From the NCBI GenBank assembly GCA_017396005.1, contig JAFQNG010000073.1, positions 1-48,643 of the forward strand: 48,643 bases of DNA. The letters run 5' to 3'. The notes under the pieces are model-generated. The model saw nothing but the letters and a program-made list of their open reading frames with translations. It had not been told where the DNA came from and ran no database searches. Source of the stretch: Desulfovibrio sp. (GTDB lineage: Bacteria > Desulfobacterota > Desulfovibrionia > Desulfovibrionales > Desulfovibrionaceae). The number at the start of each line of letters is the position of its first letter. Within the stretch, counting starts at the first letter, position 1. Below are positions 82 through 19,785 of the stretch, piece after piece. The position numbers and the translations under genes are program-made.

Positions 82-131
82 ATACAGATAAAGGGTTGTG
101 CCATGTGGCGTTCAGCTTTTCTCAAAACGGA

Positions 132-611: not shown

Positions 612-629
612 TAATAATCATTTTTTCGT

Positions 630-659: not shown

Positions 660-696
660 TCTTTCAACAAAACATTTCCAGCAAGTTGAGGTTCTC

Positions 697-1429: not shown

Positions 1430-1465
1430 AAACCCACCACCGTACAACATTTTGAAGAGGCAAAC

Positions 1466-1759: not shown

Positions 1760-1824
1760 GGGCAGATACATCACGCTAGCTACTTTTTCACTGTGCGTCA
1801 CGCAAACCAGAAGGAAATATTCGC

Positions 1825-2274: not shown

Positions 2275-2289
2275 GTAGAAAATGAAAAT

Positions 2290-2320
2290 GCCCCTGTGCT
2301 GGTCACAACAGCACAGGGGC
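2290..2320 (+). terminator. Strong hairpin between early genes
   Basis: A perfect 12-bp stem (2290-2301 with 2309-2320, 7-nt loop) lies 16 bp after the CII-like gene and just before the ribosome binding site of the next gene. There is no T-run, so it may act as an RNA-processing or stability element, or as a site for an antiterminator, rather than a simple intrinsic terminator. Confidence 0.5.
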
Positions 2321-2343
2321 CAAACTCCCGAAGGAGTAAACGG

Positions 2344-2499
2344 ATGAACAAACACTATTTCACCCCACCCCGTACTGTCAAGCCCGTGAGCTATATTTTG
2401 ACCCTCAATGGCAGCAAAATGCGCGTCCAGGCCAGCCACAGAGCCATGCTTGAGCTTGTACGTCTGCTCTTGCCCAGAGCGCAGGAGGTGCGAGCATGA
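2344..2499 (+). CDS. Small hypothetical protein (51 aa)
   Basis: The start at 2344 follows an AAGGAG ribosome binding site with good spacing. The product is 51 aa, basic, with no recognised family. Its stop codon overlaps the start of the next gene (ATGA), so the two are translationally coupled. Small genes of this type fill the early regions of many temperate phages. Confidence 0.55.
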   Translation: MNKHYFTPPRTVKPVSYILTLNGSKMRVQASHRAMLELVRLLLPRAQEVRA

Positions 2500-2612
2500 T
2501 CTACGCCTTTGCACTGCTTTCAGCTGTTGCACTGGGTATCGCTCTACTGGGGGAGTACAAGGAACAACAGCGGCTACACCATATGGCTGATGAAGTGAGG
2601 AACCGCCGATGA
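2496..2612 (+). CDS. Tiny single-span membrane protein (38 aa)
   Basis: This 38-aa ORF begins ATG ATC TAC at 2496, overlaps the preceding stop by 4 nt, and its own stop overlaps the ATG at 2609 by 4 nt. Residues about 3-18 are hydrophobic (AFALLSAVALGIALLG) and the tail is charged, giving a one-pass membrane protein. The double overlap makes it the missing link of a continuous coupled gene chain, the best evidence that it is translated. Function unknown. Confidence 0.55.
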   Translation: MIYAFALLSAVALGIALLGEYKEQQRLHHMADEVRNRR

Positions 2613-3094
2613 AAGCACTGACCATCTATACTGCTGCGTCTTTCAGGATGATCCACGCCGTGAAGCTTTTTCATATGGCTGTGCGTGAGCGCATCCCCAA
2701 TGTCACCATCCTGGACTGGACAACCAAGGCCACACCTCCAGACGGCCTTACCCCGGCCCAACGCCGGGAATGGTTTGACACTGAGCAGAGTGGCGGCCAG
2801 GTCTACGCCTTTTGCCGAGACGCCTGTGTCAGTGCGGATGTGGTGATCTATCTCGGCCAGTCCGGTCAGGACGCGGGCGTGGAAGTGGGCATGGCAGTAT
2901 CGGCGGGTGTGCCTGTCATCGGTGTGCGCGGCCCCCTGGAGGCGCCCGGCCTTATGCTTCACGGGGCAGTGAATGTCTGGTGCTACGACATAGAGCAGGT
3001 CATTGTGCTGCTCACCCGTCTGGCCGGGCAGTGCTCTGGAGTGGATTGCCTGGACTGCAAGGCCCTGGACATCTGCACCAGGGCAGAGAGGTAA
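2609..3094 (+). CDS. Nucleoside 2-deoxyribosyltransferase-like protein
   Basis: This 161-aa protein has a Rossmann-like pattern: an N-terminal strand ending in TAASF, a helix, then the segment VSADVVIYL and the loop GQDAGVEVGMAVSAGVPVIG, which matches the nucleoside 2-deoxyribosyltransferase fold where the acidic residue of the G-x-E-x-G loop is catalytic in true enzymes. Phages use such proteins in nucleotide salvage, but related fold members have other roles. The C-terminus has a cysteine cluster (CSGVDCLDCKALDIC) that could bind metal and is not standard for the enzyme family. Fold moderately sure, reaction not. Confidence 0.55.
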   Translation: MKALTIYTAASFRMIHAVKLFHMAVRERIPNVTILDWTTKATPPDGLTPAQRREWFDTEQSGGQVYAFCRDACVSADVVIYLGQSGQDAGVEVGMAVSAGVPVIGVRGPLEAPGLMLHGAVNVWCYDIEQVIVLLTRLAGQCSGVDCLDCKALDICTRAER

Positions 3095-3097
3095 ATC

Positions 3098-3568
3098 ATG
3101 CAGGAGTATACCCCTTCATTCCCTCCTGTGCCCATACAGCATTCGCGCTGCGTCATGGCCGTGAGTGTGGCAAAGGCTGTCATGCAGTTATTCAAGGAAC
3201 CTGCTGACAAGGCATTGATCGGGCAGCTGCAGAAGATACGGCGCTGGCTGGATGACTGTGAAAAGCAGATCAGAGAACGCCCGCTTTCCCGTGGGGCACA
3301 GCGCGACATTGATCGCAAACTGAGCCATCTGGACGCAGCCTTCAATGTGAAGGACCTGGATGACGAGGCGCTCTTCCAGCGCGTCTGCACTTTGGTCTGG
3401 ACGGCAGATACCTTCATTCTGGATGTGCGCTGTACCTGTCCAGAGTTTCGCACGGCGCGTTGCTGGCGTTACTTATGGCAGACCTGGGGCACCCTGGCAG
3501 AGGCATTGCTTAAAATTTGCCCCGGTGCGGATGAGCAGGGCTGTGCCCTGTATGAGAGGGCGGCATGA
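3098..3568 (+). CDS. Hypothetical phage protein (156 aa)
   Basis: A soluble 156-aa protein starting 3 nt after the previous stop and ending in a 4-nt overlap with the next gene, so it belongs firmly to the early operon. The middle is helical and charged; the C-terminal half has several cysteines (CTCPEFRTARC, then CPGADEQGC) that might bind a metal. I recognise no family. Confidence 0.55.
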   Translation: MQEYTPSFPPVPIQHSRCVMAVSVAKAVMQLFKEPADKALIGQLQKIRRWLDDCEKQIRERPLSRGAQRDIDRKLSHLDAAFNVKDLDDEALFQRVCTLVWTADTFILDVRCTCPEFRTARCWRYLWQTWGTLAEALLKICPGADEQGCALYERAA

Positions 3569-4041
3569 GCGAATTGTACCCTGTTGCAGACTGGCCCGGT
3601 TACAGCGTCAACCGCCTGGGGCAGGTCTTCAGCGAATACGGCGACCTGACCTGTGACAGCAGCGGCAAATACACGCTTCGTCACAGGTCAGGCAGGAAGC
3701 AGAAAAAGCTGCATGTGGGCACTATCATGGAACTGGCCGGCCTGCTCGTAAGCACGGATTCGTATCAGCAGCAGGAAGATGAAGAGGTGGCCGCTCTGCG
3801 GCGTGAATGTGACGCCCTGCGGGCCGTGGAGGCAGAACTGCGAGCCCATCTGGCAATGGCAGAGCAGACCATTGCCCGTGGCCGCAAGCTCAACGGCCAC
3901 CTTCTCCACCTGGTGCGCGGTAGGCAGCAAGACTCCGAGCCGGATCGGCACAGAGAGAAAACATCAAGGCATACGGCAAGGGTAAGGCAGGCTGCACAGG
4001 ATCAGCCGGAGCCGCTGGATTTGTATGAATGGGATATGTGA
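3565..4041 (+). CDS. NUMOD4-like N-terminus with coiled coil
   Basis: Residues about 5-25 (PVADWPGYSVNRLGQVFSEY) fit the NUMOD4 motif, a small DNA-binding module normally attached to HNH homing endonucleases. No HNH nuclease follows; residues about 70-112 form a heptad-rich coiled coil and the tail is basic. It may be a DNA-binding protein derived from a homing nuclease. It overlaps the previous gene by 4 nt and lies 11 bp before the excisionase start. Confidence 0.5.
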   Translation: MSELYPVADWPGYSVNRLGQVFSEYGDLTCDSSGKYTLRHRSGRKQKKLHVGTIMELAGLLVSTDSYQQQEDEEVAALRRECDALRAVEAELRAHLAMAEQTIARGRKLNGHLLHLVRGRQQDSEPDRHREKTSRHTARVRQAAQDQPEPLDLYEWDM

Positions 4042-4052
4042 GAGAGGTCCAT

Positions 4053-4373
4053 ATGAGCCAGATCGTTGTCATAAGCCCTACAGAATTGCATTCGCTGGTG
4101 GCCAGAGCTGTGCAAGAAGGTGTACAGTCAGCCATACGGTCAACAAGTCAGCCCCTGGCAGATATGAATGAGAAGCAGGCTTCTCTGTACCTTGGAATTG
4201 CAGCTGATACTCTTCGCGGTTGGCGTGTGCAGAAAACAGGGCCTGCCTATTATAAATCTGGACGTTCGGTACGTTACTCCAAAACAGATCTGGATGAATG
4301 GAAGCGGGCTAATCGGGTTCTGACTGCGGATTCTCTGGAAATTCAGGAGCGCCTTCATGGAATGTCGTACTGA
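4053..4373 (+). CDS. xis: Excisionase-like HTH protein
   Basis: A 106-aa protein with start at 4053 behind GAGAGAGG. Residues about 38-90 carry a winged-helix MerR/excisionase-type HTH: MNEKQASLYLGIAADTLRGW followed by a basic wing with KSGRSVRYSKTDLDEW. Such proteins bind near the attachment site and steer the integrase toward excision. It is the last gene of the early operon, and its 3' end overlaps the 3' end of the integrase on the other strand by 65 bp, so transcription of one may interfere with the other. Confidence 0.7.
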   Translation: MSQIVVISPTELHSLVARAVQEGVQSAIRSTSQPLADMNEKQASLYLGIAADTLRGWRVQKTGPAYYKSGRSVRYSKTDLDEWKRANRVLTADSLEIQERLHGMSY

Positions 4374-5520
4374 TGGTTTGCGCCGTAATGCTGCGCGTGG
4401 CGTCCATAAGATGGCTATACCTCTTGGTCATTTCAAGAGAATGATGACCAAGTCTGTCTGCGATGGTGAGCTGCCCCTGTCCTCCACAGGCAAGCCAGGA
4501 AGCGTAGGTGTGTCTGAGGGTATGAAAGACAACACGCTGTCGCCTGTCCTGAATTTTGAGCATGACAGAGCTGCCGTCTGGCCGTCTGATGACTTCGCCG
4601 GTATCATTCAGGCCAAGGGCGTCCACCGCACGGTTGAAAGTTTCGGATGCTGCTTTCATGACGCCCCCGTCACGAGCCGGAAAGAGCAGATCTGTCAGCG
4701 ATCTCTTAGGCAATGTGTGCAGGGCAGCAGCCACCTCATCCGTCATGACGGCGTGGCGGGCACGTCCACTCTTGGATTCTGCAATATAAATGGTATTGCT
4801 TTCAAAGCGCACATCCCCACAGCGCAGACGGGCAATTTCTCCGAAGCGCAGGCCGCAGTGCAGGCTGACCAAAGCCATGAGCCATGTCTGCCTGCTTCTG
4901 CGATACAGCTCGTCCAGCAAGGCTCTGGCTTCCTGGGGAGTGAGAAAACGCTCACGAGAGCTATTCGTCTTGGGCATAGTAAGCCCGTTAAAAGGCATCG
5001 GCCCTGTGTAGAGCTTCCACAAGCTCATGCGCCGCATGATTCTTCGGACAAGCCCTATCGCATGGCGTATCGTCTGGGGGGATTTTCCGGCGGCTCGCAT
5101 GTCACCCATGAGCTGATCAAGGCGGTGAGCAGTGATCTGATGCAAGGGGAGGGAACACAGAGGCTTGAGGTGGCCACGGATCAGGCTTTTATCAGGGGCG
5201 CTGTTTTTGCCACTGGCATCAAGCCATTCTATAAGATACCGCTCCCATGCCTGGCCCAAAGTCATGGAAGAAGCGCGAGGCATGGGAACTCCGCCCATAG
5301 CCGCAGATGTTTTGGCTTCATTGACCAGCCGAGACCGCATCTCAGCGGCAAGCGCAGCGCTGAACCCTTCGCTGGCCCAACCTACATCCTTGCGCACTCG
5401 CTTGCCGGTGGCATCTCGGTAGTCTATGGTAAAGCAGACATCAGGACGCCCCTTGTAACGGCGTTCGCTGCTTTCCCTGGCTTGAACCCCGGCGTACTTT
5501 GTGCTTTTGCGCTTGCTCAT
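4309..5520 (-). CDS. int: Tyrosine recombinase (phage integrase)
   Basis: This 403-aa integrase inserts and excises the element at the neighbouring tRNA-Arg gene. An N-terminal arm-binding region (about 1-70) and a SAM-like core-binding domain (about 85-180) precede the catalytic domain (about 190-380). The catalytic set is visible: R225 (CGLRFGEI), K250, H333-x-x-R336 (HTLRHTYAS), H359 (LGHHSLEMT) and Y368 (KRYSHL). I place the start at 5520 (MSKRK) instead of further upstream because the protein begins there with a typical integrase sequence. The gene ends head-on into the excisionase and its start lies about 160 bp from the attachment half-site. It looks intact. Confidence 0.93.
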   Translation of the reverse strand: MSKRKSTKYAGVQARESSERRYKGRPDVCFTIDYRDATGKRVRKDVGWASEGFSAALAAEMRSRLVNEAKTSAAMGGVPMPRASSMTLGQAWERYLIEWLDASGKNSAPDKSLIRGHLKPLCSLPLHQITAHRLDQLMGDMRAAGKSPQTIRHAIGLVRRIMRRMSLWKLYTGPMPFNGLTMPKTNSSRERFLTPQEARALLDELYRRSRQTWLMALVSLHCGLRFGEIARLRCGDVRFESNTIYIAESKSGRARHAVMTDEVAAALHTLPKRSLTDLLFPARDGGVMKAASETFNRAVDALGLNDTGEVIRRPDGSSVMLKIQDRRQRVVFHTLRHTYASWLACGGQGQLTIADRLGHHSLEMTKRYSHLMDATRSITAQTISTTFHEGAPEFPENPQSEPD

Positions 5521-5679
5521 CGTGCGACCCCATTGCGACCGTGGATCGTAGTTTGCGACATGATTGCGACCTATCGGCAATCTCTCGTAATCTCTCAAAA
5601 AGCTAGAACTGCTTGGATTTACTGTGTTTCCTACAACAGTACACGGGGGCAAGCAAGCACATCTTTTACACAGATTCGC

Positions 5680-7739: not shown

Positions 7740-8806
7740 TTGACTATGATAGCTAATAGTAGTTTTGATCCTGTTGTGTATAGTTATTCTACGAATGTTA
7801 TAAATAAGGATTTTATTACAGAGGATGGTTTTCTTTTATTTTCTAATATGTATGCAAATCTTGATGAAATAAGCACTAGTAGCTCTCCTCTGTTTAACTG
7901 GAGAATTAATTCTGCAACATCTACTAAACTTCCAGATGATATAGTATATAAAATTGAACAAAATAATGGTGTGTTATCTGTTCTAGATAAAGATGGGAAT
8001 AATATACCTAGCGTAACTATAGGTAGCTCATCTAATACAGAAATAACGATACAAACTCCGTCTGGCACCATAGTGTTAGAAACTGTTGGGTCTACTCCTA
8101 GCAATCATGAGTTGTCTACGAATGATTTTTGGTTTTCATTTAAATACAGTGATCCTGATGTATTTACTACACAAATGAAACCAATAATTGAAAATGAAAG
8201 TATTTATGCAGGTGCAAGAGTTACAGCAGTTAATCCAGGTGGTTTTGATAACATACATAATACGTCGTCTATAGGTTATGATATTAATTTGAATAATGAT
8301 AATATTGTTGATGTTCAAACTACAATTACAGCAAATAGAATTGATCGAGCATTAGATCACTCTGATATACGAGAGCTTAGAATAAATCTACGTGAACCTC
8401 CCAGAGTAACAAAAATTCATTTTGGTACAGGGAATGATGAGCCTGAAGATTACTATTATATTGATACTATAGACTGTACAACGCGAGGCCTTGGAATAAG
8501 AAATGCAGACGTAAAAACACAGGACAACGCGCAAAAACCCTTGTTTCCCTGAATGATGCCATAGTAAAAAAAGATAATGCACGAGCATACTTCGGTGCCA
8601 TGCAGAACCGGTTGGAAAATACCATCAGCAATCTGACCATACAGGCGGAAAACCTGCAGGCTGCGGAATCCCGTATTTCAGACGTTGACGTGGCTACAGA
8701 AATGACCGAGTTTGTTCGTAACCAGATTTTGACCCAGTCTGCCGTAGCTATGCTTTCGCAGGCCAATTCGCTGCCGCAAATGGCCATGCAGCTCATAGGC
8801 GGCTAA
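7740..8806 (+). pseudogene. Flagellin remnant: no N-terminal domain, frameshifted
   Basis: The 3' part (8540-8803) encodes the conserved flagellin C-terminal domain: LVSLNDAIVKKDNARAYFG, then NRLENTISNLTIQAENLQ, RISDVDVATEMTEFVRNQIL and a tail ending LPQMAMQLIGG. Upstream, 7740-8537 is one open AT-rich frame of about 266 codons ending in DTIDCTTRGLGI and a TQDNAQK stretch that should lead straight into the C-terminal domain. One base is missing at about 8535-8539 (an A5 run followed by CCC), so the frame stops at 8552. The flagellin N-terminal D0/D1 helices are absent; the open frame begins in the variable central domain. It cannot form a normal filament subunit as it stands. The intact open variable region suggests either a recent break or use as a recombination cassette. 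A sequencing error at the A-run must be considered. Confidence 0.85.
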
Positions 8807-9158: not shown

Positions 9159-9863
9159 ATGCAAAGACAGGGGCAGAACAGACCGCACAGTAACAGGCGG
9201 GAAGCAGGATTATGGCTGACAGTCAGTATGTGCATGTTCTGTCTGTTGCTGAACCTGCTCTGTTCTGCTGCGTCTGCGGCTGCACCTGATCTAGCAGAGC
9301 CTCCCAGGGTGCATCTTTTCGGGACAGTGGAGCTCAGGCGGCCGCTCAAGTCACTGCCGGCCTGGGTGCAGCTGCTGGCCCGCAATCTGAAAGAACCTGT
9401 CTTCCATCCAGACAGGCCCTTCAACAAAAAGACCACCTGGGCGCACCTCAGGGACGGAGCTGCAGACAAAAAAGGCCTTTCCCTCTTGCGTTATGTCAAT
9501 GCGTTCTGGAACCGCTGGCCCTACAAAGAAGACATCCATAACTGGGGCCGACAGGACTACTGGGAGATCCCGGCTGAATTCCTGAAAAAATCAGGCGACT
9601 GTGAAGACTACGCCATCATCAAGTATTTTACTCTCAAAGAACTGGGTATGCCGCCGGAGCAGATGCGCATTGTGGTGGTGCGCGACACCCTGCGCAATCT
9701 GGCCCACGCTGTTCTTGTGGTTTATCTTGAGCAGGATGCCTATGTGCTTGACAATCTCAGCAGCGCAGTGCTCTCGCATACCAGGCTCCGTCACTACACA
9801 CCACAATATTCTGTCAATGAATCCGGTCGTTGGGCACACCTCAAGGGCCGTAAGCTCCCATAG
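9159..9863 (+). CDS. lapG: LapG-like periplasmic cysteine protease
   Basis: This 234-aa protein is a bacterial transglutaminase-like cysteine proteinase (BTLCP, LapG). In the known Lap systems LapG cuts the N-terminal region of a giant surface adhesin and releases cells from biofilm when c-di-GMP is low. A hydrophobic signal segment (about 17-42) sends it to the periplasm. The catalytic triad is visible as C148 (SGDCEDYA), H183 (LAHAVL) and D198 (VLDNL); D147 and E149 beside the cysteine correspond to the calcium-binding residues known in Pseudomonas LapG. The start at 9159 follows GGAG. It is followed after 9 bp by a membrane sensor with a degenerate HD-GYP domain, the slot where lapD sits elsewhere, and the export system lies on the opposite strand. 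Confidence 0.9.
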   Translation: MQRQGQNRPHSNRREAGLWLTVSMCMFCLLLNLLCSAASAAAPDLAEPPRVHLFGTVELRRPLKSLPAWVQLLARNLKEPVFHPDRPFNKKTTWAHLRDGAADKKGLSLLRYVNAFWNRWPYKEDIHNWGRQDYWEIPAEFLKKSGDCEDYAIIKYFTLKELGMPPEQMRIVVVRDTLRNLAHAVLVVYLEQDAYVLDNLSSAVLSHTRLRHYTPQYSVNESGRWAHLKGRKLP

Positions 9864-9872
9864 GATGACTGT

Positions 9873-11957
9873 ATGGCAGAGACACACGCCATTGTGCAGG
9901 ATCAGACCCAGGGCAATCAGAGGAAGCTGGTATTGGCAGGCGGCATTGTATTGATGCTGCTGGTAGCGATGGGCGCATGGGCACTTTGCGCCACCGAGTT
10001 TCGATACAGTAGCCAGGAAATACTCAACAGACAGCGTGAGATAGAACAGCTGCGTCTTAACAGCCTGCACGAGGCTGTTCATGTCTGGCGTGACAGGCTG
10101 AGAGAGCGTGTACGCCTTCTCAGTACGGCTGAAATGCTGCGCCTTTTTGCCATGGATGCCCAGGCGCAGAGTCAGGAGGCATTGGCTGCCTTGCGTCAGG
10201 AGCATGCCGTACAGCAAAGCGATGAAGGCCTGCAAGCGTTGGCAGAGCAGGCTTCCTATCTGCGAGGACTGCTGCAGGATTTGGCTCAGCGCAATCACTG
10301 GCAGCAGATATGTGTGCTGCACCCCAATGGGCAGACACTGGTACAGTCAGGCGATACTCTGCCCCTTGGCCCCATGCAGGAAAAGCTGGTCAGAAAGGCC
10401 GCAGCAGAGAGAAAGCTGGTTTACGGGCCCGTATATTCACATAACGGAGAACTTGTGCTGAATGTGGCTGATCCCCTTTTGCCTGTCATGGATACAGGGC
10501 AAGGGCAGGTTGTAGGCGTACTCCTGGTCACGGTACCTATGCAGCAGACATTACAGACGTTGCTGACTGGCCAGGCTGATGGTGTACGCCCTTGTATCAT
10601 TGATTTGGCAGGCATGGCCCCGTCGCTCATGGTCATGGACGGGCAGAGGGTTTTCTCTCGCCATTTGGCAGGTGATCCGGCGCAACAGCTGCAGCTTGCC
10701 TTTGGGCGTCGCCCCTCCCCGGAAAGCCCCGGGCAGGAGGTGTACGCCCTGGGAGGCAAGTTGGACAGCCCGCATTGGATACTGATGCTAGAGATACCGG
10801 CTGCACGGGTTGACAGCCTGCTGCAGGAAGAAAAAAATAAGATCTACGGCCTGGGCGTACTGGGTGGTATTGGCATCATCCTCCTGCTGGCATTGATACT
10901 GGCATCCCTCATAAGTCGTTCACACAAGGCCACAGCCCGGCGTTTCCAACGGCTTTATGCTCTTATCCGACAGCAGAAGGTGATGCTGGACAGCATCAAT
11001 GCCTCCCTGCAGGTCGGGCTCCTGCTTACAGACGGCGATGGGCGTATTGTAGTATGCAATCCGGCTTTCTGTCGCATGATCGATAGTGCCGAAGAGACCC
11101 TGCTGTACAGCAATCTGTTCACTGTTCTACCTGCCGACACGGCCAAGGTTCTGCAGGAGGGCATGGGCCGTGCCACTCGAATGCATGAAGATTTGTATAG
11201 TCTTGAGGTATCCCTGCCAGCGCCAGACCGGGAAGAAATGCGGCTCTACAGGGTCAGCCTTTTCCCCTTTACGGGACAGGCACATACGGGTGAAGACGTA
11301 CAGGGTGGCTGTGTGAGCATTTTTCAGGATATTACAGAATTCCGACGCAGGGCTGAGGCAGCCCGCGAGCGACAAAACAGTACCATGTTGGCCTTGGTGC
11401 GGGCTATCGAAAGTGTGGACAGCAATCTGGTAGGGCATTCGCAGAAGATGGAGCGCGTTATCAATCTCCTGGCCCAGGATATGCAACTACCGGAACAGGA
11501 AAGAGAAACCCTGAGTCTCGCGGCCCGCTTGTCGCAGGCAGGCAAGATATTTGTGCCGCACCATCTTTTGAGCAAGCGTGAGAAACTCAGCCCTGAGGAA
11601 CAGGCTGAGGTCCTGCGCGCACCGGAATACGCCTTCAAAGTGCTTAGCGGTATGCAATTTGGTCTGCCAGTGCCTGAGGCTGTTTACGAGATGGGCGAAC
11701 GCGTGGACGGCACTGGTCTGCCACGCGGCCTCAAAGGTCAGGAAATCAGCCAGAATGCCAGAATACTGGCTGTGGTCAATGCCTTTTGCGCCATGGTCAG
11801 TGCTCGTTCCTACCGCAAGTCTATGAGTTGCGAGGCAGCTCTGCAATTGCTGGCAAACGATCCTGGATTTGACCCGCTTGTGGTAAAGGCCCTTGCCCAT
11901 GTACCTGTCTCTGCCCTGCAGGAGGCAGTGGCAGAAACAGATAGCAGGCTCGGATAG
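9873..11957 (+). CDS. Membrane sensor: periplasmic domain, PAS, degenerate HD-GYP
   Basis: This 694-aa protein has a transmembrane helix (19-40), a large periplasmic sensor domain (about 42-322, probably Cache-like), a second helix (326-347), a coiled linker, a PAS domain (about 368-490) and an HD-GYP-like domain (about 500-690). The HD-GYP signature has lost its metal ligands: the His-Asp pair is S554-Q555 (RLSQAGK), the His-His-Glu motif reads M607-G608-E609, GYP reads GLP (615-617), and the later Asp is N636. It is therefore very unlikely to hydrolyse c-di-GMP. It is directly behind lapG (9-bp gap), so I infer a LapD-like role: sensing cytoplasmic c-di-GMP or a periplasmic cue and holding LapG through the periplasmic domain. 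Confidence 0.8.
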   Translation: MAETHAIVQDQTQGNQRKLVLAGGIVLMLLVAMGAWALCATEFRYSSQEILNRQREIEQLRLNSLHEAVHVWRDRLRERVRLLSTAEMLRLFAMDAQAQSQEALAALRQEHAVQQSDEGLQALAEQASYLRGLLQDLAQRNHWQQICVLHPNGQTLVQSGDTLPLGPMQEKLVRKAAAERKLVYGPVYSHNGELVLNVADPLLPVMDTGQGQVVGVLLVTVPMQQTLQTLLTGQADGVRPCIIDLAGMAPSLMVMDGQRVFSRHLAGDPAQQLQLAFGRRPSPESPGQEVYALGGKLDSPHWILMLEIPAARVDSLLQEEKNKIYGLGVLGGIGIILLLALILASLISRSHKATARRFQRLYALIRQQKVMLDSINASLQVGLLLTDGDGRIVVCNPAFCRMIDSAEETLLYSNLFTVLPADTAKVLQEGMGRATRMHEDLYSLEVSLPAPDREEMRLYRVSLFPFTGQAHTGEDVQGGCVSIFQDITEFRRRAEAARERQNSTMLALVRAIESVDSNLVGHSQKMERVINLLAQDMQLPEQERETLSLAARLSQAGKIFVPHHLLSKREKLSPEEQAEVLRAPEYAFKVLSGMQFGLPVPEAVYEMGERVDGTGLPRGLKGQEISQNARILAVVNAFCAMVSARSYRKSMSCEAALQLLANDPGFDPLVVKALAHVPVSALQEAVAETDSRLG

Positions 11958-11977
11958 TTGTTACGGCTTTGCTCCTT

Positions 11978-14074
11978 CTACTGCTGTCTCTGTAGATCTG
12001 CCAGGAATGCCTGCCCCTGAGGGCTTGTCAGGAGATCCCGCAGGGCCTGTAGTATGGCTGGGTCATACCTGTGGGCTTCTTCGTCCAGTATGTGCAGGGC
12101 CTGCTTGATGTTGAAAGCCAAACGCCAGGAACGCGGCCGCACCAGAGCACAGAAGGTATTGGCCACAGCCAGAAAACGTGCCGGCTCACAGATATTCTCG
12201 CCCCTGAGCCCCTCGGGATAGCCCGAGCCGTCCATGCGCTCGTACATCTGCGTGATGGCCTCCAGCACTGGCAGACCGAAGTCTATGCCGCTTAGGGCCT
12301 CACGGGCATAGGCCACATGGCTTTGCAGAAGGCTGCGTTCTTCTTCGTTGAGTGAACCGGCCTTGGTGAGCAGGTCACGCGGCAGACGTATCATGCCGAT
12401 CTGTGAAAGGCGGGCCGCTGTGTGCAGGATCTCCCTGTTCTCCTGATGGCCCCTCCCCATATGGTCGGCCAGCAGTTGGGCCAGCCGGGCCGTGAAGCCG
12501 GATTGCCCTGCCAGATAGGGATCCACAGTCTCAATGGCGCGTACCAGGACGTCCACAGTCTTGTGCACCATGTCTTCGGCCCGCTGCCGGGCCGCCACCA
12601 TGGCAGAAATATCGCTGTAGACTGACACAACACCCACCAGTTTGCCGTGATCCTCGAAAAAAGGCGTACTGGAGCCCACAAAATGTCGTTCCTGGCCGTT
12701 CAGTACCAGCGTTCCCTCAAAATGAGCGGCAGTGCCCCTGTCATGTACAGCCCGCGTACGCCTGACAAGACTGCGCGCAAGGCTGTCGGGCAACTGCTCA
12801 TGGGGCAGGCCACGCATGTGCCGTACCTCACGCCCTGCCATGCCGGCATAGCTTTCGTTGGCGTAGTAGATGACGCCATTGAGGTCATTGAGCACTATGC
12901 CTTCTGAAAGACAGGCGTTCATATTGTCCATGATCTGCTTCTGCTGCTGCAAAAGCTGGTAGAGATGGCGTATCTGGGCGGTGACAGTACGTTCCTGCCG
13001 TGCCACCAGCCACCACCAGAGAGCCAGCAGCACAATGCCTGTAAAGGCAATGAGCAGGCAGCCTGCCAGGACAACGTTCTGGCGCAGACGCACATAGGGC
13101 TGCATGACCGTATGGGCATCTGTGCTCTGCATGACCAGCCACGGCATGTCAGGTACGGGCAGAGCCAGGCTATAGACCTCATGGCTGTTAGTCTGGCCAG
13201 CGGGGATGGGCAGGCTACGCAGGGCTTGGGGCAGGGTTTCGTTGTCCAGATGCCAGTCAGGCAGGGCCAGGCTGCCGCGCACGTCCAGCATGCGCAGATT
13301 GGACCCCTGGCTTTCCAGTATGGCCGACGTGATCAGGCCGTCCGGCGTAACACTGCTGGCTGCCCTGACTACTGCCGTCACATCCAGGCTGTAGAGCAGA
13401 AGCCCTGACACCAGTGTACCAGACCTGTCCACGTAGCGTGGGGCAAAGACAGGGCAGGCCACATCCATCAGCAGGGCCTCACCTGTCTGGCGTACGGGCA
13501 GCATGACAGGCCGGCGCGTATGGCGCGCCTGCGTGAGTGCTGCCAGCTGATTGCTGTCTGGCAGCGTCTGTCCTGGCGCTGCCAGATAGGTCTCAAGGCG
13601 GGTATTGACAAACCAGGCTGCGTTGATGTCATGTCCCTGCATAAAATTCTGGAGCAGCTGGAGCATGATTGGCAGACGGTTGGCAAGACTGTCAAGGGGG
13701 GCGTGGCCGGTATGATCCTCTGAATCCTGCGTTGCGTCCTGTTCTTCCGGTGACAGTATCTGCCGCTGCGCCATTTCACGAAGGGCAGCGGCGGGCAGAG
13801 ACGAGGCTTCAGCCTCTACGGAAAAGAGGCGCACAATGTCCTGCTGCAGAAAGTGCTGCACATAGGCTTTGTGATCCCCGTACCAGACCGTGAGCAGAGC
13901 TGCCTGATTGCCTGCCTTGACCAGCATTTCCTGCTCATTGTCGTGCAGCAGGCGTTGCCGGGCATCCTGCAGAAACCAGTGGGCCGTCAGCAGTACTGTC
14001 AGGACGGCAAGGGCCAGCAGGGCCAGCATGAGGGCCACGGCGCGCCGTTTATGGACAATTAGATTCTGGAGCAT
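11978..14074 (-). CDS. Second membrane sensor with PAS and degenerate HD-GYP
   Basis: A 698-aa paralogue of the preceding gene, encoded convergently with a 20-bp gap. Layout: transmembrane helix (about 12-32), periplasmic region (about 35-330) with a Cache-like pattern ending PDMPWLVMQSTDAHTVMQPY, second helix (about 334-356), PAS (about 378-492), HD-GYP-like domain (about 500-690). The catalytic His-Asp is L556-S557-Q558 (S and Q replace H and D), the His-His pair is M610-Y611, and the late Asp is N639; GSGYP (616-620) and H586 remain. The same positions are lost as in the first protein, so the losses are probably ancestral and the fold is kept for binding. It lies upstream on the same strand as the secretion genes' 3' end (14097), hence likely the distal gene of that operon. 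Confidence 0.8.
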   Translation of the reverse strand: MLQNLIVHKRRAVALMLALLALAVLTVLLTAHWFLQDARQRLLHDNEQEMLVKAGNQAALLTVWYGDHKAYVQHFLQQDIVRLFSVEAEASSLPAAALREMAQRQILSPEEQDATQDSEDHTGHAPLDSLANRLPIMLQLLQNFMQGHDINAAWFVNTRLETYLAAPGQTLPDSNQLAALTQARHTRRPVMLPVRQTGEALLMDVACPVFAPRYVDRSGTLVSGLLLYSLDVTAVVRAASSVTPDGLITSAILESQGSNLRMLDVRGSLALPDWHLDNETLPQALRSLPIPAGQTNSHEVYSLALPVPDMPWLVMQSTDAHTVMQPYVRLRQNVVLAGCLLIAFTGIVLLALWWWLVARQERTVTAQIRHLYQLLQQQKQIMDNMNACLSEGIVLNDLNGVIYYANESYAGMAGREVRHMRGLPHEQLPDSLARSLVRRTRAVHDRGTAAHFEGTLVLNGQERHFVGSSTPFFEDHGKLVGVVSVYSDISAMVAARQRAEDMVHKTVDVLVRAIETVDPYLAGQSGFTARLAQLLADHMGRGHQENREILHTAARLSQIGMIRLPRDLLTKAGSLNEEERSLLQSHVAYAREALSGIDFGLPVLEAITQMYERMDGSGYPEGLRGENICEPARFLAVANTFCALVRPRSWRLAFNIKQALHILDEEAHRYDPAILQALRDLLTSPQGQAFLADLQRQQ

Positions 14075-14096: not shown

Positions 14097-15899
14097 CTAG
14101 CGTTCGCGCAGGGCGTTTTCCCTGGCTTTCAATATGGGTTTGAGGATGTAGTCCAGCACGGTTTTCTTGCCGATGAGGATGTCTGCCACCACCAGCATGC
14201 CCGGAATGATGGGCAGTATTTCGTTCTGATAGCGTATGGCCGTTTCGCCGGTGCGAACCTTGGCCAGATAGTAGTAATTGCCCTGTCTGTCTTCGATGGT
14301 GTCGGCGCTGATGTGCTCCAGTTTGCCGGACAGGCCGCCGTAGATGGAAAAGTCATAGGCCGATACCTTGATCATCACGTCCTGACCGGGTCGCAGAAAA
14401 GCCACATCCCTGGGCAGCACACGGGCTTCTACCAGCAATGTGTCGTCCAGGGGGACCAGATCCATGATGGGTTCGCCGGGCTTGACCACGCCGCCTACGG
14501 TCGTGATGTGTATCTGCTTGACCGTGCTGCGAACAGGTGCGCGCAGTTCTGTGCGTGTGACACGGTCACTGCCTGCCGACAGGGTCTCACGCAGGGAGGT
14601 CAGCTCCAGGCGGAGGTTATTGATCTCTTCGGTGACAGTGCTTTTCTGTTCGGCCTGTCGCGAGGCAATGCGCTGTACAGCCTCTTCGGCAGCTGCCTGG
14701 GCCCTGGGTATGCTGGCCGCCAGCATGTCCACCTGGCCCTGGAGTTCCACCACCTTCTGTTGCAGGCCCAGATATTCCATGCGGGAGAAATTGTTGCGCT
14801 GCACCAGCCTGCGGGCGGTCTCCTGCTGTTCCAGGGCAATGGCCAGGCTGCGGTCCAGCTGCATCTTGCGGGCACTCTGTTCTTCCACCTCATGGCGGCG
14901 CTGAACCTCCTGTGAACGGAGCACATCCAGCTCTGCTGCCAGCTGCTCCCGGCGAGAGGACCAGGCATTGCCTTCGTCCCGCACGATCTGCTGCAGGCGC
15001 GCAAGGCTTTCGCTGTCCAGGGCATGGCCCAGCAGCGCCTGTCCCCAGCGCGGAAGATCCGGCGGGAAGACAGGTTCGTTGTCCCGCAGTTCCGCTTCCA
15101 GTCGCAGGATGGCCATGCTGTTCTTCATGGCCTTGTTGACGGCATCTCGGTAGGCAGATTCGGCAAATTCATTGTCCAGTCGGGCCAGTATGGCGCCCTT
15201 TTCCACGATCTGATTTTCGTGCACCAGGACGGCCCGCAGTATGCCGCCTTCCAGATTCTGTATGGTCTGCGTGCGCTGCGAGCCCACCACTGAGCCTTCG
15301 GCATGGGTCACTTCGTCAATCTCGGCAAAGCCTGCCCAGACCAGCAGGCAGGCCAGCATGACAGCCACGCTTACCGAAAGCAGGCGTGCCCCGAAACGGG
15401 GCCGCCGGCTGAGTGCGGCGTCCAGCTCATGGGCAAACTGTATGTCGTCAGGGCTCAGGCCGCGCAGAGGGGCGTCCATGAGGGCAAAAAAGCCGGCCTG
15501 TCCGTCAGGGGCATCCTTGGGAGCGTCAGTACGCTCTTTTTTGCCGGTCAGGGATGCCCAGGCCAATTGCAGGGAGCGGCGCAGGGTGCGGTCAGGTTTC
15601 TGCTCCTGCGGGCCAGGGACAAAAATGCGCTGTATAAGCGGGGAAAGACGATCCAGCCATCGCCGGGAAGCCCGATTTGTCTCCTGAGCGGCAGGGGGTG
15701 CGGTCAGGTGTACAGGGAGGGCAGCGACTGGCTGTGTATTTTCTGTGGCCGGCATGGGCGTGCTGTCCAGCAGGAGGGCCGCAAAAGCGGCACTGCTGGC
15801 CCCGTTCATGCCGGGCATGGCATCAGTTGTCTCATGGCTGCGTCGGCTCTGCTCATTGTCCTGCACAGGAGGCTGTGTGGGGGAAGACGGTGTGCCCAT
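14097..15899 (-). CDS. lapC: Type I secretion membrane fusion protein (HlyD/LapC-like)
   Basis: The 600-aa adaptor links the inner-membrane exporter to the outer-membrane channel. Start at 15899 is set by a GGGAG ribosome binding site inside the end of the exporter gene (TGA-C-ATG). It has one transmembrane helix (about 171-191) followed by AEIDEVTHAEGSVV, a biotinyl-lipoyl-like beta domain, a long alpha-hairpin coiled coil (about 245-460) and the HlyD C-terminal domain (VVKPGEPIMDLVPLDDTLLV, GQDVMIKVSAYDFSIYGGL). The cytoplasmic N-terminus of about 170 residues, poor in structure and rich in P, A and Q, is far longer than in typical HlyD proteins. Confidence 0.9.
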   Translation of the reverse strand: MGTPSSPTQPPVQDNEQSRRSHETTDAMPGMNGASSAAFAALLLDSTPMPATENTQPVAALPVHLTAPPAAQETNRASRRWLDRLSPLIQRIFVPGPQEQKPDRTLRRSLQLAWASLTGKKERTDAPKDAPDGQAGFFALMDAPLRGLSPDDIQFAHELDAALSRRPRFGARLLSVSVAVMLACLLVWAGFAEIDEVTHAEGSVVGSQRTQTIQNLEGGILRAVLVHENQIVEKGAILARLDNEFAESAYRDAVNKAMKNSMAILRLEAELRDNEPVFPPDLPRWGQALLGHALDSESLARLQQIVRDEGNAWSSRREQLAAELDVLRSQEVQRRHEVEEQSARKMQLDRSLAIALEQQETARRLVQRNNFSRMEYLGLQQKVVELQGQVDMLAASIPRAQAAAEEAVQRIASRQAEQKSTVTEEINNLRLELTSLRETLSAGSDRVTRTELRAPVRSTVKQIHITTVGGVVKPGEPIMDLVPLDDTLLVEARVLPRDVAFLRPGQDVMIKVSAYDFSIYGGLSGKLEHISADTIEDRQGNYYYLAKVRTGETAIRYQNEILPIIPGMLVVADILIGKKTVLDYILKPILKARENALRER

Positions 15900-15900
15900 G

Positions 15901-18117
15901 TCACGCTCCCACAGCCGCAGTGCCGACCGCTGCTCCTGCGGAGACCGCAGGTTTTCTGCCCTGGCGCAAACGTTGCAGAACCTTGTCGCGCGGGCCATCC
16001 ATGCGTATGCGGCCTTCCTCCAGGACAATGAGACGGTCCACCATGCGCAGCATGGACAGGCGGTGCGTGATGAGGATGACCGTGCGCCCCTGCATGGCTT
16101 CGTTCAGGCGCTTTTGCAGCAGGAGTTCCGCATCGGTATCCATATTGCTGGTGGGCTCGTCCAGGATGAGCACATCAGGGTCGCGCACGAGGGAACGGGC
16201 CAGGGCCACGCTCTGCCGCTGCCCGCCCGAGAGGGCCTTGCCCTGTTCGCCCACCTGGGCTGCAAAACCGGCCGGGTCATCACGCAGAAAGCGCGTCACC
16301 CCGGCCAGTGTGGCAGCGCGCAGGATCATGTGGTCATTGATGGAGGGGTCATTGAGGGCAATATTGTCTCGTACAGTGCCGTAGAAGAGGGTCACTTCCT
16401 GCGGCAGCACGCCCACGCGACCGCGCAGATCCGAACCGGGGATCTGCCGGATGTCCACACCGCCGAATTTTACGGCACCTTCCGTAGGCTGATACAGGCC
16501 GAGCAACAGGCGTGACAGTGTGCTCTTGCCCGAACCCATGGGCCCGATGATGCCCACGCGCTCACCGGCCCGTATTTCCAGCGAGACCCTGTCCAGGGCC
16601 AGGCGCTGCCGGCCGGGGTAGGCAAAGGACACAGCCTCCATGCTGAAGGCGGGCGTCAGGGAGCCGAAATCCATGAGGGTACGTTCGGCCTGATTCTCCG
16701 AGGGCAGTTGCATGAGCATGTCCAGGGCCTTCAGGGCAATATGCGAATTCTGCAGGCGGGTGAGCAGACCGGCCAGCTGCAGCAGGGGGGCCATGATGCG
16801 GCCCACCAGAATATTGCAGCCGATGAGGGCTCCCATGGTCATGAGCCCTTCACCGATGCGGTATACCCCCCAGACGATCATGGCCACGGTCACCAGCTGG
16901 GTGACAAGCATGGAGGCAGCCACAGCAAGGCTGCTGTACTTGCGGGCCTCACTGGCAGAGCGGGCCGAATGCCCCACCACGTTTTCCCAGAGGCGCTGCA
17001 TACGGCTTTCTGCCATGCAGACCTTGATGGTTTCCAGACCGCTGACCATTTCTACCAGCAAGGCGTTTTTCTGCATGCCCTGTTTGTAGCCGGCCTCGGC
17101 ACTCAGACGCGAACGCCGCTGCAGCCAGAGGCCCACCAGCAGGAGCACGGGCACTGCCGCCAGGGGCAGGAGAGCCAGGGGGCCGCCCATGAAGGCCAGA
17201 AGGAAGACAAAGATGAACATGAAGGGCAGGTCAATGCAGGCCAGCAGGCTGGAAGAACTGAAAAATTCCCGCAGCTGCTCGAATTCGCGCAGATTGTTGA
17301 TGAGAGCACCGGTGGATTCGGGCTTTGCGTCCAGCCGCATGGTGAGCATCTTGTCCACCAGGGCGCTGGAAAGCACCACATCGGCATTGCGGCCGGCCAC
17401 ATCCACAAAATGCGTACGCAGTGAGGTCAGCAGAAAGTTGAAGGCATAGATGATGAGTATGCCCACAGCCAGTACCCAGAGGGTTTCCAGCGCATTGTTG
17501 GGCACTACCCGGTCATAGACATTCATGACAAAGAGGGGGCTGGCCACAGCCATGAGATTGATGACCAGGCTGGCCAGCGCCACATGACGGTAGATGGGCG
17601 CGTAAAAGGCCAGTACGTCCCAGAACCAGCGCTTACCCTTGGCAATGCTCAGTTTTTCCACCCTCTCCTGCGGAGCCTCGGCCACAGCGGCAAAGAGGGC
17701 ATAGCCCGAATAGTCCTCACGCAGGGCCTCCAGAGGGACGTCCTGCGGGCTGTCGCAGGTTTCGGGAAAAATGACACGGGCTGTGCTCTCGGTACGGGAG
17801 AGGAGGACGCAGGCTCTGTCTCTGGTCAGCAGCAGAATGCAGGGCAAGACCAGCGGGGATATGTCTTCCAGGTGCGGCCGGTACAGTATTCTGCCCGAGA
17901 GGCCTGCCTTGCGGGCAGCCCGCAGACAGGCCTGCGGTGTGACCCGGCTGCCTGAAAGTCCGGTCAGCAGGAACTGCGGTGAAACCGTCTTGCCGCGCAG
18001 GCGCAGGAGTACAGAAAGGCAGCGCAGCAGACCGGGCATGAAGTCCACATCAGAAGGCCGAAGCGGCCCCATGTCAGGCATGGGGCCGCTTTTCACAGGC
18101 GGCTCGTTTTGGGCCAT
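15901..18117 (-). CDS. lapB: Type I secretion ABC exporter (LapB-like)
   Basis: The 738-aa exporter pumps an RTX-type adhesin across both membranes. It has an N-terminal C39-like peptidase fold (about 20-150) lacking the catalytic Cys motif, the form that binds but does not cut substrate in LapB/HlyB-type exporters, then an ABC transmembrane domain with about six helices (about 172-460) and a nucleotide-binding domain (about 495-720) with Walker A GPMGSGKST, signature LSGGQRQ, Walker B VLILDEPTSNMD and the switch His in ITHRLS. It lies 12 bp after the TolC-like gene and 1 bp before lapC, as an operon. The expected giant adhesin gene is not adjacent. Confidence 0.92.
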   Translation of the reverse strand: MAQNEPPVKSGPMPDMGPLRPSDVDFMPGLLRCLSVLLRLRGKTVSPQFLLTGLSGSRVTPQACLRAARKAGLSGRILYRPHLEDISPLVLPCILLLTRDRACVLLSRTESTARVIFPETCDSPQDVPLEALREDYSGYALFAAVAEAPQERVEKLSIAKGKRWFWDVLAFYAPIYRHVALASLVINLMAVASPLFVMNVYDRVVPNNALETLWVLAVGILIIYAFNFLLTSLRTHFVDVAGRNADVVLSSALVDKMLTMRLDAKPESTGALINNLREFEQLREFFSSSSLLACIDLPFMFIFVFLLAFMGGPLALLPLAAVPVLLLVGLWLQRRSRLSAEAGYKQGMQKNALLVEMVSGLETIKVCMAESRMQRLWENVVGHSARSASEARKYSSLAVAASMLVTQLVTVAMIVWGVYRIGEGLMTMGALIGCNILVGRIMAPLLQLAGLLTRLQNSHIALKALDMLMQLPSENQAERTLMDFGSLTPAFSMEAVSFAYPGRQRLALDRVSLEIRAGERVGIIGPMGSGKSTLSRLLLGLYQPTEGAVKFGGVDIRQIPGSDLRGRVGVLPQEVTLFYGTVRDNIALNDPSINDHMILRAATLAGVTRFLRDDPAGFAAQVGEQGKALSGGQRQSVALARSLVRDPDVLILDEPTSNMDTDAELLLQKRLNEAMQGRTVILITHRLSMLRMVDRLIVLEEGRIRMDGPRDKVLQRLRQGRKPAVSAGAAVGTAAVGA

Positions 18118-18129: not shown

Positions 18130-19551
18130 TTAATTGAACCAGCCTGGTTCAAAGAATTCCCGCTGGTCAGCAGGGTCTTCCTTGGGCCTGTTCTCCAGTG
18201 GTGCCGTGTCAATGGAAAGGCCGGGCAGGAGCTCGCCTGTGAGAGCGCAGAGGCGATAGGCCCCAACCAGTATGTTGCCTTTAGCGGTTTCGGCCTGACT
18301 GGCCGAGTTGTAGAGCTCGCTCTCGGCGTCCAGTACGTCCAGCAGACTGCGTGTGCCCAGAAGAAACTGCTCCTGATAGGCGCTGCGGGTATACTGATTG
18401 TACTCCACAGCCCGGGAATAGAGCTTGTGCTGTTCCTGCGCGGCTAAGTAGTTGATCCAGGTGCTGTCAATGTCCAGCTTGAGGTCTTCAGCGTAATTGT
18501 ACATGAGCTGACGCGACTGGCGGATACGCGCTGAAGCGGCCTTGCGTTCTGCCACATCTGCCCCGCTGTTGAAGACATTCCAGCGCATGACGCCCAAGAC
18601 ATCAAAGCTGTAGACATAGCGGTCGTCAGCCCCGCCCCGGTCCGTATAGTCAGGCCCGGCCTCCAGGGTGAAGTGCGGATAGAAAGTGGATTCCGCCAGC
18701 TCCTTGTCTGCCTGCAGGGCGCGTATGTCCTGCAGATAAGCGGCCAGTTTGGGATTGTGCTTGAGGGCCAGCTCATAGACGCTGGAAGGATTCTTGAAGG
18801 TCTGTGGCGGCATGGGCACGGCCTTGAGCTTGATGGCGGCAGGAAGACCGGTGAGGCGGGTATACGTCTCTTCAGCAACCGCAAGGGCGGCTCGCACTTC
18901 AGACAGGCCTGACTCTGCCCTGGCCAGACGGGACTGGGCCTGACTCACATCAGCGGCCGTGTCTGCCCCCAGAGAGGCACGGTCCTGCGCTTGGCCCAGA
19001 ATGCTTCTGTGGCGCTGTACATTGCGTTCGGCCAGGGCGCAGATGGCCCGTTGGCGCAGGAGGTCAATATGGGCAATGATGCCGTCCAGCGAAAGGGAGG
19101 TTGCCGTATCGAACACCCGGGCCCTGACCGAATCCAGTGTGGAGCGGGCACTGCGCACACGCGAGCGCGTGGCAAAACCGTCCCATATGGGCTGTACGAG
19201 ACGGGCGCTGATGCCCAGGAGGCCGTACATCCTCTTGTCCAGGTCCTGGTTTCTGGTGGTGCTGTCGCTGAGCAGGCTGCCACCGGCACGACCCTCTACG
19301 TCCACACGCGGGCCGAAGCCTGCCCGGGCGCGCTCCACTTCATGGGTCAGCACCTGACGGTTTTCCTGTATTTCTCGCAGACTGCGGTGTGTGCGCAACA
19401 CACCGTAGATGCTGTCCTTGACACTCAGGGCCTGGCCTGGCGGAGGCGGGGGCGGGTAGTCTGGCGCTGTGCGTGCAGTGCCGGTGGCAGAAAAGGCTGG
19501 AAAGGGCGATCCCACAAGGAAGATCAGCAGGCAGGCAGATATGAGACGCAT
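18130..19551 (-). CDS. lapE: TolC-like outer-membrane channel (LapE-like)
   Basis: A 473-aa outer-membrane efflux protein, start at 19551 (MRLISACLL) after an ACGAGG ribosome binding site. Residues 1-21 are a signal peptide. The rest shows the duplicated OEP pattern of long helices and short strands (for example RARAGFGPRVDVEGRAG early; FYPHFTLEAGPDYTDRGG later), ending in a Pro-rich and acidic tail. It is the first gene of the secretion operon. The 234-bp region upstream (19552-19785) must hold the operon promoter; TTGAAA on the minus strand near 19695 is a weak -35 candidate, with no clear -10. Confidence 0.9.
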   Translation of the reverse strand: MRLISACLLIFLVGSPFPAFSATGTARTAPDYPPPPPPGQALSVKDSIYGVLRTHRSLREIQENRQVLTHEVERARAGFGPRVDVEGRAGGSLLSDSTTRNQDLDKRMYGLLGISARLVQPIWDGFATRSRVRSARSTLDSVRARVFDTATSLSLDGIIAHIDLLRQRAICALAERNVQRHRSILGQAQDRASLGADTAADVSQAQSRLARAESGLSEVRAALAVAEETYTRLTGLPAAIKLKAVPMPPQTFKNPSSVYELALKHNPKLAAYLQDIRALQADKELAESTFYPHFTLEAGPDYTDRGGADDRYVYSFDVLGVMRWNVFNSGADVAERKAASARIRQSRQLMYNYAEDLKLDIDSTWINYLAAQEQHKLYSRAVEYNQYTRSAYQEQFLLGTRSLLDVLDAESELYNSASQAETAKGNILVGAYRLCALTGELLPGLSIDTAPLENRPKEDPADQREFFEPGWFN

Positions 19552-19785
19552 AAAGACCTCGTGACATTTGCTCTCTGCGCGATATGCCGACAAAACGTCC
19601 ACATCGCCGCAGACAAGGCTAGCGGCAATGGCATATTGCAGAGACCGCGAGATTCCCGGTACTTTTTTAGCATGACACACTTATGTATTCTTTTCAATTG
19701 CCCTGTCTGCGTATACTGGCAGTAGCCCATACTGGCCCAATCCTGTATGAGAAATGATCAGGGTGAAGTGTGATGGCAGCAGATG

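Follow-up and report, generated by a model that had tools for sequence, protein, structure and literature searches.

The window analysed here is a stretch of 48,643 nucleotides from a Desulfovibrio sp. genome (contig JAFQNG010000073.1, C43 hereafter), and carries a gene for a lapG/dvhG-type periplasmic cysteine protease of the BTLCP kind at 9159..9863 on the forward strand (234 aa; PF06035, E=1.8e-21; 4fgo, 4.9e-25). After 9 bp it is followed by receptor A (9873..11957, forward strand, 694 aa), a member of the lapG-linked clade of the DvhD family, which converges on receptor B (11978..14074, reverse strand, 698 aa) of the exporter-linked clade of the same family, the gene ends at 11957 and 11978 leaving 20 bp between them. 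Receptor B lies 22 bp after the HlyD-family adaptor of a type I exporter (14097..16028; PF13437, 9.1e-17), in line with the ABC transporter (15901..18117; PF00005, 1.7e-32; PF00664, 1.4e-22) and the TolC-family outer-membrane channel (18130..19680; PF02321, 5.6e-50), all on the reverse strand. The true start of the HlyD gene is uncertain, as its TTG-started reading frame runs into the ABC gene. Receptor A thus stands after lapG but out of line with the exporter, and receptor B after HlyD and without a preceding lapG, so that the typical DvhD position, right after the protease gene and inside the export operon, is occupied by neither. This gene order is a variant arrangement, and the assignment of both receptors to the DvhD family rests on sequence.

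The initial annotation had proposed an intact LapG, and the triad C148/H183/D198 was verified together with the DCE motif, in keeping with a BTLCP protease that has a C-H-D triad and a calcium motif. An N-terminal hydrophobic segment (residues 20-38) followed by AxA looks signal-peptide-like by eye, and a PDB sequence search returned 4fgo and 4u65 as solved relatives, both of which are named as LapG structures (PMC13090378).

The description of a two-span membrane protein with a periplasmic domain, PAS and a degenerate HD-GYP domain 9 bp after lapG, and of a second such protein convergent with it and aligned with the export genes, was likewise borne out. Receptor A has hydrophobic spans at 19-37 and 329-347, PAS_4 at 378-492 and HD_5 at 508-668, and receptor B has spans at 12-30 and 334-352 with PAS and HD_5 matched. 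The top PDB match of both was DvhD, and by sequence both resembled its PAS/HD-GYP structure and, more weakly, its dCache structure (9rc0 and 9rc2: 2e-46 and 3.8e-08 for A, 1.5e-64 and 1.8e-08 for B), which together with the two spans, a dCache-like periplasmic domain, PAS and HD-GYP completes the DvhD-family features of the pair. The HD metal pair was replaced by SQ in both proteins, while the GYP motif reads GTGLP in A and is kept as GSGYP in B. It is therefore extremely improbable that one or both receptors are active c-di-GMP phosphodiesterases that merely adjoin lapG: the HD_5 matches are strong in both, and HD-GYP homology is common to them and active enzymes such as PmGH (4mdz), but the metal-binding pair is gone, H occurred at this position in 0/152 aligned relatives, and DvhD, which also carries SQ, bound c-di-GMP with a Kd of about 99 nM and did not hydrolyse it (PMC13090378).

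LapD is built from a LapD_MoxY periplasmic domain and HAMP-GGDEF-EAL (PMC13090378). The window resembles the Pseudomonas LapG/LapD system in its protease, its exporter and the principle that an inactivated enzyme serves as c-di-GMP receptor in the inner membrane, but LapD_MoxY, HAMP, GGDEF and EAL were matched in neither A nor B. The earlier statement that no GGDEF or EAL domain occurs was correct for the window, with no match to either on contig C43; the genome (85.6% complete) yielded six GGDEF matches and one EAL match. The lone EAL protein is a PAS-GAF-GGDEF-EAL protein with no hydrophobic span and is therefore not LapD. A true LapD elsewhere in the genome, which the initial annotation had named as the finding that would speak against its proposal, was not found at this completeness. 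PF16448 exceeded the cut-off in 0/149 family genomes, and as the 14 control genomes also gave none, the sensitivity of this profile is unproven. G087 was rejected as a LapD carrier: its single PF16448 match was below cut-off (E=3.7e-4) and its genome had no lapG match.

A close precedent exists in Desulfovibrio (Nitratidesulfovibrio) vulgaris Hildenborough, where DvhG/DvhD (also BfsG/BfsD; DVU1019/DVU1020) are encoded in the order dvhG then dvhD in the export operon, and where DvhD, an HD-GYP protein without activity, serves the LapG-type protease DvhG as its c-di-GMP receptor (PMC13090378). Control of DvhG by DvhD in a reconstituted strain is credited to Karbelkar et al. 2024, as cited in PMC13090378. 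The main point of the original proposal, an inactive HD-GYP protein standing in for LapD, is supported by the homology of A and B to DvhD; this substitution is already established (PMC13090378), and the finding as first stated is therefore not new. The two systems are alike in the LapG-type protease, the TolC-ABC-HlyD exporter and, on the present side as a candidate, an RTX adhesin with a retention-like start and a [TAP]AAG motif, and the window receptors share with DvhD the dCache-PAS-HD-GYP order, SQ in place of HD, and sequence homology. Unlike D. vulgaris, the window has two receptors of different clades: the exporter-linked one is not preceded by lapG, and the one next to lapG has lost pocket residues. 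This two-receptor variant was not found in the literature searched.

A candidate adhesin lies in the same genome (G000, contig C47, locus L256, 4820-9862), and was found via its RTX repeats and its similarity to an open reading frame beside HlyD in G011. It has a retention-like start and the motif MPAAG, with PAAG at residue 93. The similarity to the G011 frame suggests an N-terminal retention domain, and the RTX protein with its cleavage motif is a likely LapG substrate; the retention_LapA profile NF033682 matched 0/13 genus genomes.

Two receptors were found in 48/79 genus genomes by search and inspection, several of these being counted from search matches alone without the receptors having been fetched; in fetched two-receptor genomes, lapG usually adjoins A and the exporter adjoins B. 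All 56 of the 79 genus genomes with lapG were among the 58 that bear a receptor, and lapG occurred in 0/21 receptor-less ones. It was present somewhere in 47/49 B-bearing genus genomes, a count that assumes a B in every two-receptor genome, and the two misses are 63% and 74% complete. Among the 73 named loci with sequence upstream, lapG directly precedes the receptor in 62, and the other 11 are B-type genes behind HlyD; B-type loci with such upstream sequence number twelve, and the twelfth (L125, Bilophila) has lapG. By search, nine genus genomes hold A only, with a completeness of 99% or more in four; in the five of the nine where the gene behind HlyD was in view (G146, G154, G176, G177 and G178), it is no receptor. 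In a receptor tree from which 22/174 sequences with identical last 250 residues had been dropped, window A fell in clade A and window B in clade B. The search with one receptor query (P0003) missed eight degenerate A genes, all from a single subgroup, which were recovered from lapG neighbourhoods, and the A of G183, split into two unjoined reading frames (414 and 139 aa), was left out of the alignment. Stop codons flagged inside the B of G153, G171, G204 and G205 do not interrupt reading frames of 689 aa.

Pocket positions are given in DvhD numbering, with Y523, K582, Y621, R650, Y652 and R653 as canonical-site contacts. Bridging-site R569 was not conserved and K520 was found in 1/69 even within the D group, and both were therefore left out of the comparison. 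Window A reads N523, Q582, L621, R650, Y652 and R653, with three contacts lost and three kept, while window B reads Y523, R582, Y621, R650, W652, R653 and E668, with two conservative changes among the canonical contacts. The phosphate-contacting residue Y621 was kept in 69/69 of the D group, 17/17 basal A and 25/30 B, and in 0/35 genus-type A (35 of 36 being readable, as the A of G154 has X there); sequences added later gave 5/5 for B and 0/6 for A. Genus-type A proteins have Q, L, S, N, R, T, H, A or a deletion at this position, a variety that looks like lost constraint. Y621 was also absent from 8/8 readable A of the nine A-only genomes, so that A can exist without B, and from the A of G011, which belongs to another genus; it was kept in the A of G001 and G089 despite a B in both genomes. 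Seven A proteins have lost Y652 and the GYP motif as well, and the same seven lack PAS (an alignment gap, five having been domain-scanned); all seven genomes have a B match spanning nearly the whole query. The suggestion that PAS adds a redox or ligand input found no support here, and PAS is absent from 5/5 scanned A proteins of this one genus subgroup. B is not uniformly intact either: most of the pocket was lost in five genomes (G161, G168, G173, G210 and G213), and the HD-GYP residues H524, K561 and F563 are lost in B and kept in A. Because Y621 and Y523 are lost in A and kept in B, the copy adjoining lapG is the worse candidate of the two for the c-di-GMP receptor. Nevertheless, P567, L577, M646, R650 and R653 were kept in 36/36 genus-type A, and Y621 is not listed among the changes most harmful to binding, P567T, R650A and Y652A/R653A (PMC13090378), so that A may still bind c-di-GMP.

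Periplasmic positions are given in B numbering. E317 was kept in all 86 receptors of the D group and basal A, in 72% of 36 genus-type A and in 0/24 lapG-less B, this set comprising 24/30 B without G073 and five fast sequences. These lapG-less B have also lost R154, F283 and S302. The B of G073, the one with its own lapG, keeps R74, P135, R154, G160, G200, F283 and S302, with D at 317; window A has lost R74, R154, G200 and S302.

Taken together, I favour an adhesin-release switch of the Dvh type in which two receptors of the DvhD family have diverged, at a probability of roughly 60%. The sequences show its parts, their homology, gene order, clades and residue losses, and a likely substrate with the cleavage motif; control of the protease by a receptor in response to c-di-GMP has been demonstrated in D. 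vulgaris, and every step in this organism is inferred. The RTX adhesin would be exported via TolC-ABC-HlyD, and its N-terminal retention domain would keep it in the outer membrane until LapG cuts it at the [TAP]AAG site and releases it, and at high c-di-GMP the inactive inner-membrane HD-GYP receptors would restrain LapG. At least one of A and B very probably controls the window LapG. How the two share this task is a more tentative matter: B, behind the exporter genes and without its own lapG, may sense c-di-GMP, and A, right after lapG, may be the LapG-coupled copy. As its pocket is partly dismantled, A would be influenced by B or by its own dCache/PAS input, or would respond weakly to c-di-GMP. 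It is doubtful that A alone controls LapG through a dCache or PAS signal other than c-di-GMP while B no longer acts on LapG and instead regulates an export-related process. Such a reading would suit the A-only genomes with their Y621-less A, the loss of E317, R154, F283 and S302 in lapG-less B where G073 B keeps them or changes only to D, and the case of G048, a genome with no PF06035 match in which a Y621-bearing receptor follows ABC and HlyD genes, so that receptors of this kind may function in the absence of LapG; against it, the pocket is kept in most B, and nearly all B-bearing genus genomes have lapG.

Independent homodimers that share one LapG, each binding c-di-GMP, A through a remodelled pocket, and each restraining the protease, with two thresholds or two dCache/PAS inputs, are unlikely. 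The five residues kept throughout genus-type A, the likeness of both periplasmic domains to the DvhD dCache by sequence, and the tight co-occurrence of lapG and receptors across the genus fit this arrangement, but Y621 is invariant in the D group and basal A (86/86) and yet varied in genus-type A, seven A proteins lack Y652 and the GYP motif too, and periplasmic residues kept in the lapG-linked G073 B are gone from lapG-less B. For Desulfovibrio, a LapD-like receptor split over two proteins, with B as c-di-GMP sensor and A as a LapG-touching pseudo-receptor that takes its state from B via a mixed dimer, is rather improbable, and an obligate A-B pair is disfavoured because A-only genomes exist; if the split were true, the subgroup with PAS-less, GYP-less A and a kept B would be its finished form. 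Rate covariation between A, B and LapG (r 0.70-0.74 over 17 genomes, ABC and HlyD distances removed) leans on a fast clade, the B-LapG value dropping to r=0.22 (p=0.12) without three fast genomes, and was not relied on.

The two-receptor variant amounts to a natural dissection: linkage to the exporter, linkage to LapG and the c-di-GMP pocket are distributed over two proteins, genomes with A only, with both receptors or with a PAS-less A can be compared, and receptor A serves to test the importance of the pocket in a receptor encoded next to LapG. Font et al. called the way in which DvhD restrains DvhG hitherto unknown, and R154, F283, S302 and E317 emerge as candidate periplasmic residues for this restraint when B proteins without lapG are set against the lapG-linked B of G073.

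The window's lapG gene (9159-9863, + strand; Peptidase_C93, 1.8e-21), whose product has 4fgo and 4u65 as solved relatives, is followed after nine bases by the start of receptor A (9873-11957, + strand). Convergent with A lies receptor B (11978-14074, - strand), located behind the HlyD, ABC and TolC genes, which share its strand; both receptors carry PAS and HD_5 domains and two hydrophobic spans. Profile matches, open reading frames and motifs bore out the positions of all parts in the initial annotation, and they also confirmed its intact LapG triad (C148-H183-D198, with a DCE motif besides) and its loss of HD-GYP catalytic residues in both receptors, where SQ replaces the HD pair. Chance is excluded as the source of the locus: the open frames are long and match their profiles strongly, and the gene order is conserved across many genomes.

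The proposal that an inactive HD-GYP protein acts here as the LapG receptor turned out to be right but already known. In a PDB sequence search, the top match of both receptors was to the D. vulgaris DvhD structures, namely 9rc0 for PAS/HD-GYP (A 2e-46, B 1.5e-64); the match to 9rc2, the periplasmic dCache domain, was weaker (A 3.8e-08, B 1.8e-08). DvhD carries SQ for HD, binds c-di-GMP with a Kd of about 99 nM without hydrolysing it and alters its shape upon ligand binding, and the Dvh system is present in other Desulfovibrionales (Font et al., PMC13090378). The same paper cites Karbelkar et al. (2024) for control of the protease DvhG by DvhD via c-di-GMP in a P. fluorescens reconstitution, and a 2017 mBio paper had already noted an HD-domain sensory box protein in lapD's place (PMC5646257). 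The window locus is most likely a Dvh-type switch, in which the c-di-GMP-bound receptor would restrain LapG, so that the adhesin would stay on the cell.

A true LapD elsewhere in the genome was the alternative named at the outset, and none was found in this 85.6% complete assembly (2.26 Mb, 100 contigs): six GGDEF matches and one EAL match were obtained, and the lone EAL protein (PAS-GAF-GGDEF-EAL) has no hydrophobic span. LapD_MoxY_N was above cut-off in 0/149 family genomes, a count that comes without a positive control as 14 control genomes likewise gave none. The unusual feature of the locus is its gene arrangement. The literature searched, with subscription papers and the Font et al. supplement beyond reach, yielded no account of a single LapG accompanied by two DvhD-type receptors, and the division of roles between A and B is the testable point of the system.

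A survey of 79 genus genomes (receptor query P0003, E<=1e-30) found a receptor in 58 and lapG in 56, all among the 58, with two receptors in 48/58, a count that includes search hits, some of them unfetched. Using a 4.5 kb test for adjacency, both receptors stood beside lapG in the window genome, one beside and one away in 32 genomes, two both away in six, and a lapG-linked receptor only in nine; one of the six (G159) actually has lapG and then an A-type ORF running off the contig. Eight more genomes had lapG and one receptor away by search, and on fetched DNA a degenerate A adjoins lapG in all eight (as two ORFs in G183). Two receptor-bearing genomes were without lapG: G157 (two receptors, 63% complete) and G189 (one receptor, 74% complete). 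The window genome has one PF06035 match; a single lapG per genome is not universal, since six of the 56 (G149, G200, G197, G199, G173, G180) have two or three. The away copy follows HlyD in the fetched two-receptor genomes G040, G068, G102, G114, G137, G188, G153, G161, G166, G171, G205, G160, G163, G172, G201 and G204, and in the divergent G168, G173, G210 and G213. The lapG-A and exporter-B units face each other in the window and share one place in another layout in G153, G205 and G171.

A FastTree of 174 receptor sequences (152 after duplicate removal), midpoint-rooted and with the branching order of groups not settled, gave three groups: B (n=30, support 0.987), A (n=53, 1.0) and a D group (n=69, 0.775) that holds the Nitratidesulfovibrio sequences and a member (L130) matching 9rc0 at 2.9e-119. 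Group A splits into 36 genus-type sequences, including one from another genus (G011), and 17 basal ones, among them those of G001 and G089, which also have B. Of 121 confirmed loci, 80 were retained in the named scan, and seven of these 80 start at the receptor (L115, L135, L151, L174, L178, L180, L191). In 62 of the remaining 73, the mapped gene immediately preceding the receptor is lapG; in the other 11, which are B-type loci under Desulfovibrio or Desulfovibrionaceae titles (L114, L116-L124, L148), HlyD precedes B. The one B-type locus with upstream sequence that has lapG before B, L125 of Candidatus Bilophila faecipullorum (G073), suggests that lapG was later lost from the B operon. In G048 (L106 8752-14434), a receptor placed outside the A and B clades directly follows HlyD- and ABC-like genes and keeps Y621; the fetched 19 kb contain no lapG, and G048 is not listed with PF06035.

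DvhD contact residues were located in the receptors by alignment. Y621 is kept in 69/69 D, 17/17 basal A, 25/30 B and 0/35 readable genus-type A (0/6 A and 5/5 B in further sequences), Y/F523 in 69/69, 17/17, 29/30 and 7/36, and R650 in 69/69, 17/17, 29/30 and 36/36, respectively. Window A reads N523, Q582 and L621, position 621 being freely variable in A, while window B reads Y523, R582, Y621 and W652. Seven A proteins of one subgroup, labelled rumen after close B proteins in named rumen MAGs and not after the origin of the seven, lack the DGxGYP stretch and Y652; they align to A only outside PAS (BLAST), and all five scanned have an HD domain and no PAS. A simple story in which A loses the pocket and B keeps it is weakened by five B proteins that have lost most of it (G161, G168, G173, G210, G213) and by nine A-only genomes, whose A lacks Y621 in 8/8 readable cases. 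The changes most harmful to DvhD include those at R650, P567 and R653 (PMC13090378), all retained in A. Weighing these retained residues against the pocket losses, A of the rumen subgroup has quite probably lost c-di-GMP binding, and for window A the chances of such a loss appear about even.

On the periplasmic side, 36 columns were at least 75% conserved in 86 D-group and basal A receptors; genus-type A retains them at a mean of 0.57 and B, counted over 24 sequences without G073 and the five fast ones, at a mean of 0.51. In D group plus basal A, genus-type A and B, respectively, E317 is found in 100%, 72% and 0%, F283 in 98%, 81% and 12%, R154 in 95%, 67% and 8%, and S302 in 97%, 75% and 17%; P135 shows the reverse split (95%, 6%, 79%), and R74 and G200 are gone from both genus-type A and B. 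Window A keeps G160, F283 and E317 and has lost R74, R154, G200 and S302. The G073 B, the only B with lapG, has R74, P135, R154, G160, G200, F283, S302 and D317, a pattern that fits periplasmic residues going with LapG pairing, though it may also reflect that G073 branches first. In the HD-GYP part conservation is not all on one side: over 69 columns A retains a mean of 0.77 and B of 0.82, and H524, K561 and F563 are lost in B and kept in A.

A likely substrate, judged from sequence, is encoded on contig C47 of the window genome: an RTX protein of 1680 residues that carries MPAAG and whose start resembles an ORF beside HlyD in G011 (8.3e-46). Among 13 selected genomes of the genus, 10 have RTX repeats (10/10 with a lapG match, 0/3 without). 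Contigs C34 and C68 of the window genome (L254, L255) hold further long RTX-repeat ORFs of 1562 and 1961 aa without a match to the retention-like start, possibly other type I secretion substrates.

Receptor architecture varies further. LapG-linked A proteins with arrays of about four PAS (G185, L222 3241-6510, 1089 aa) and about three PAS (G186, L224 6492-9350, 952 aa) are the opposite of the PAS-less form. In the fast-evolving group (L194-L205, L233; G161, G168, G173, G210, G213) both receptors are without most of the pocket, and lapG stands without an adjoining receptor in G161, G168 and G213. In one ORF of G154 (L211 5891-9169), a DegT-type aminotransferase and a degenerate HD-GYP receptor are joined; as this ORF contains unknown residues, the join probably stems from a scaffold gap. 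Upstream of the window lapG, a 270-residue ORF without a Pfam match and a 68-residue ORF consisting of a flagellin C-terminal domain only (PF00700, 4.8e-21) resemble a flagellin gene that is incomplete or has been interrupted (7740-8806, + strand). Positions 1-5652, with a tyrosine-integrase-like ORF (4309-5652, - strand) preceded by small phage-like regulator ORFs, read as a mobile-element edge ~3.5 kb from lapG, and the sole tRNA gene detected in the window lies at 44207.
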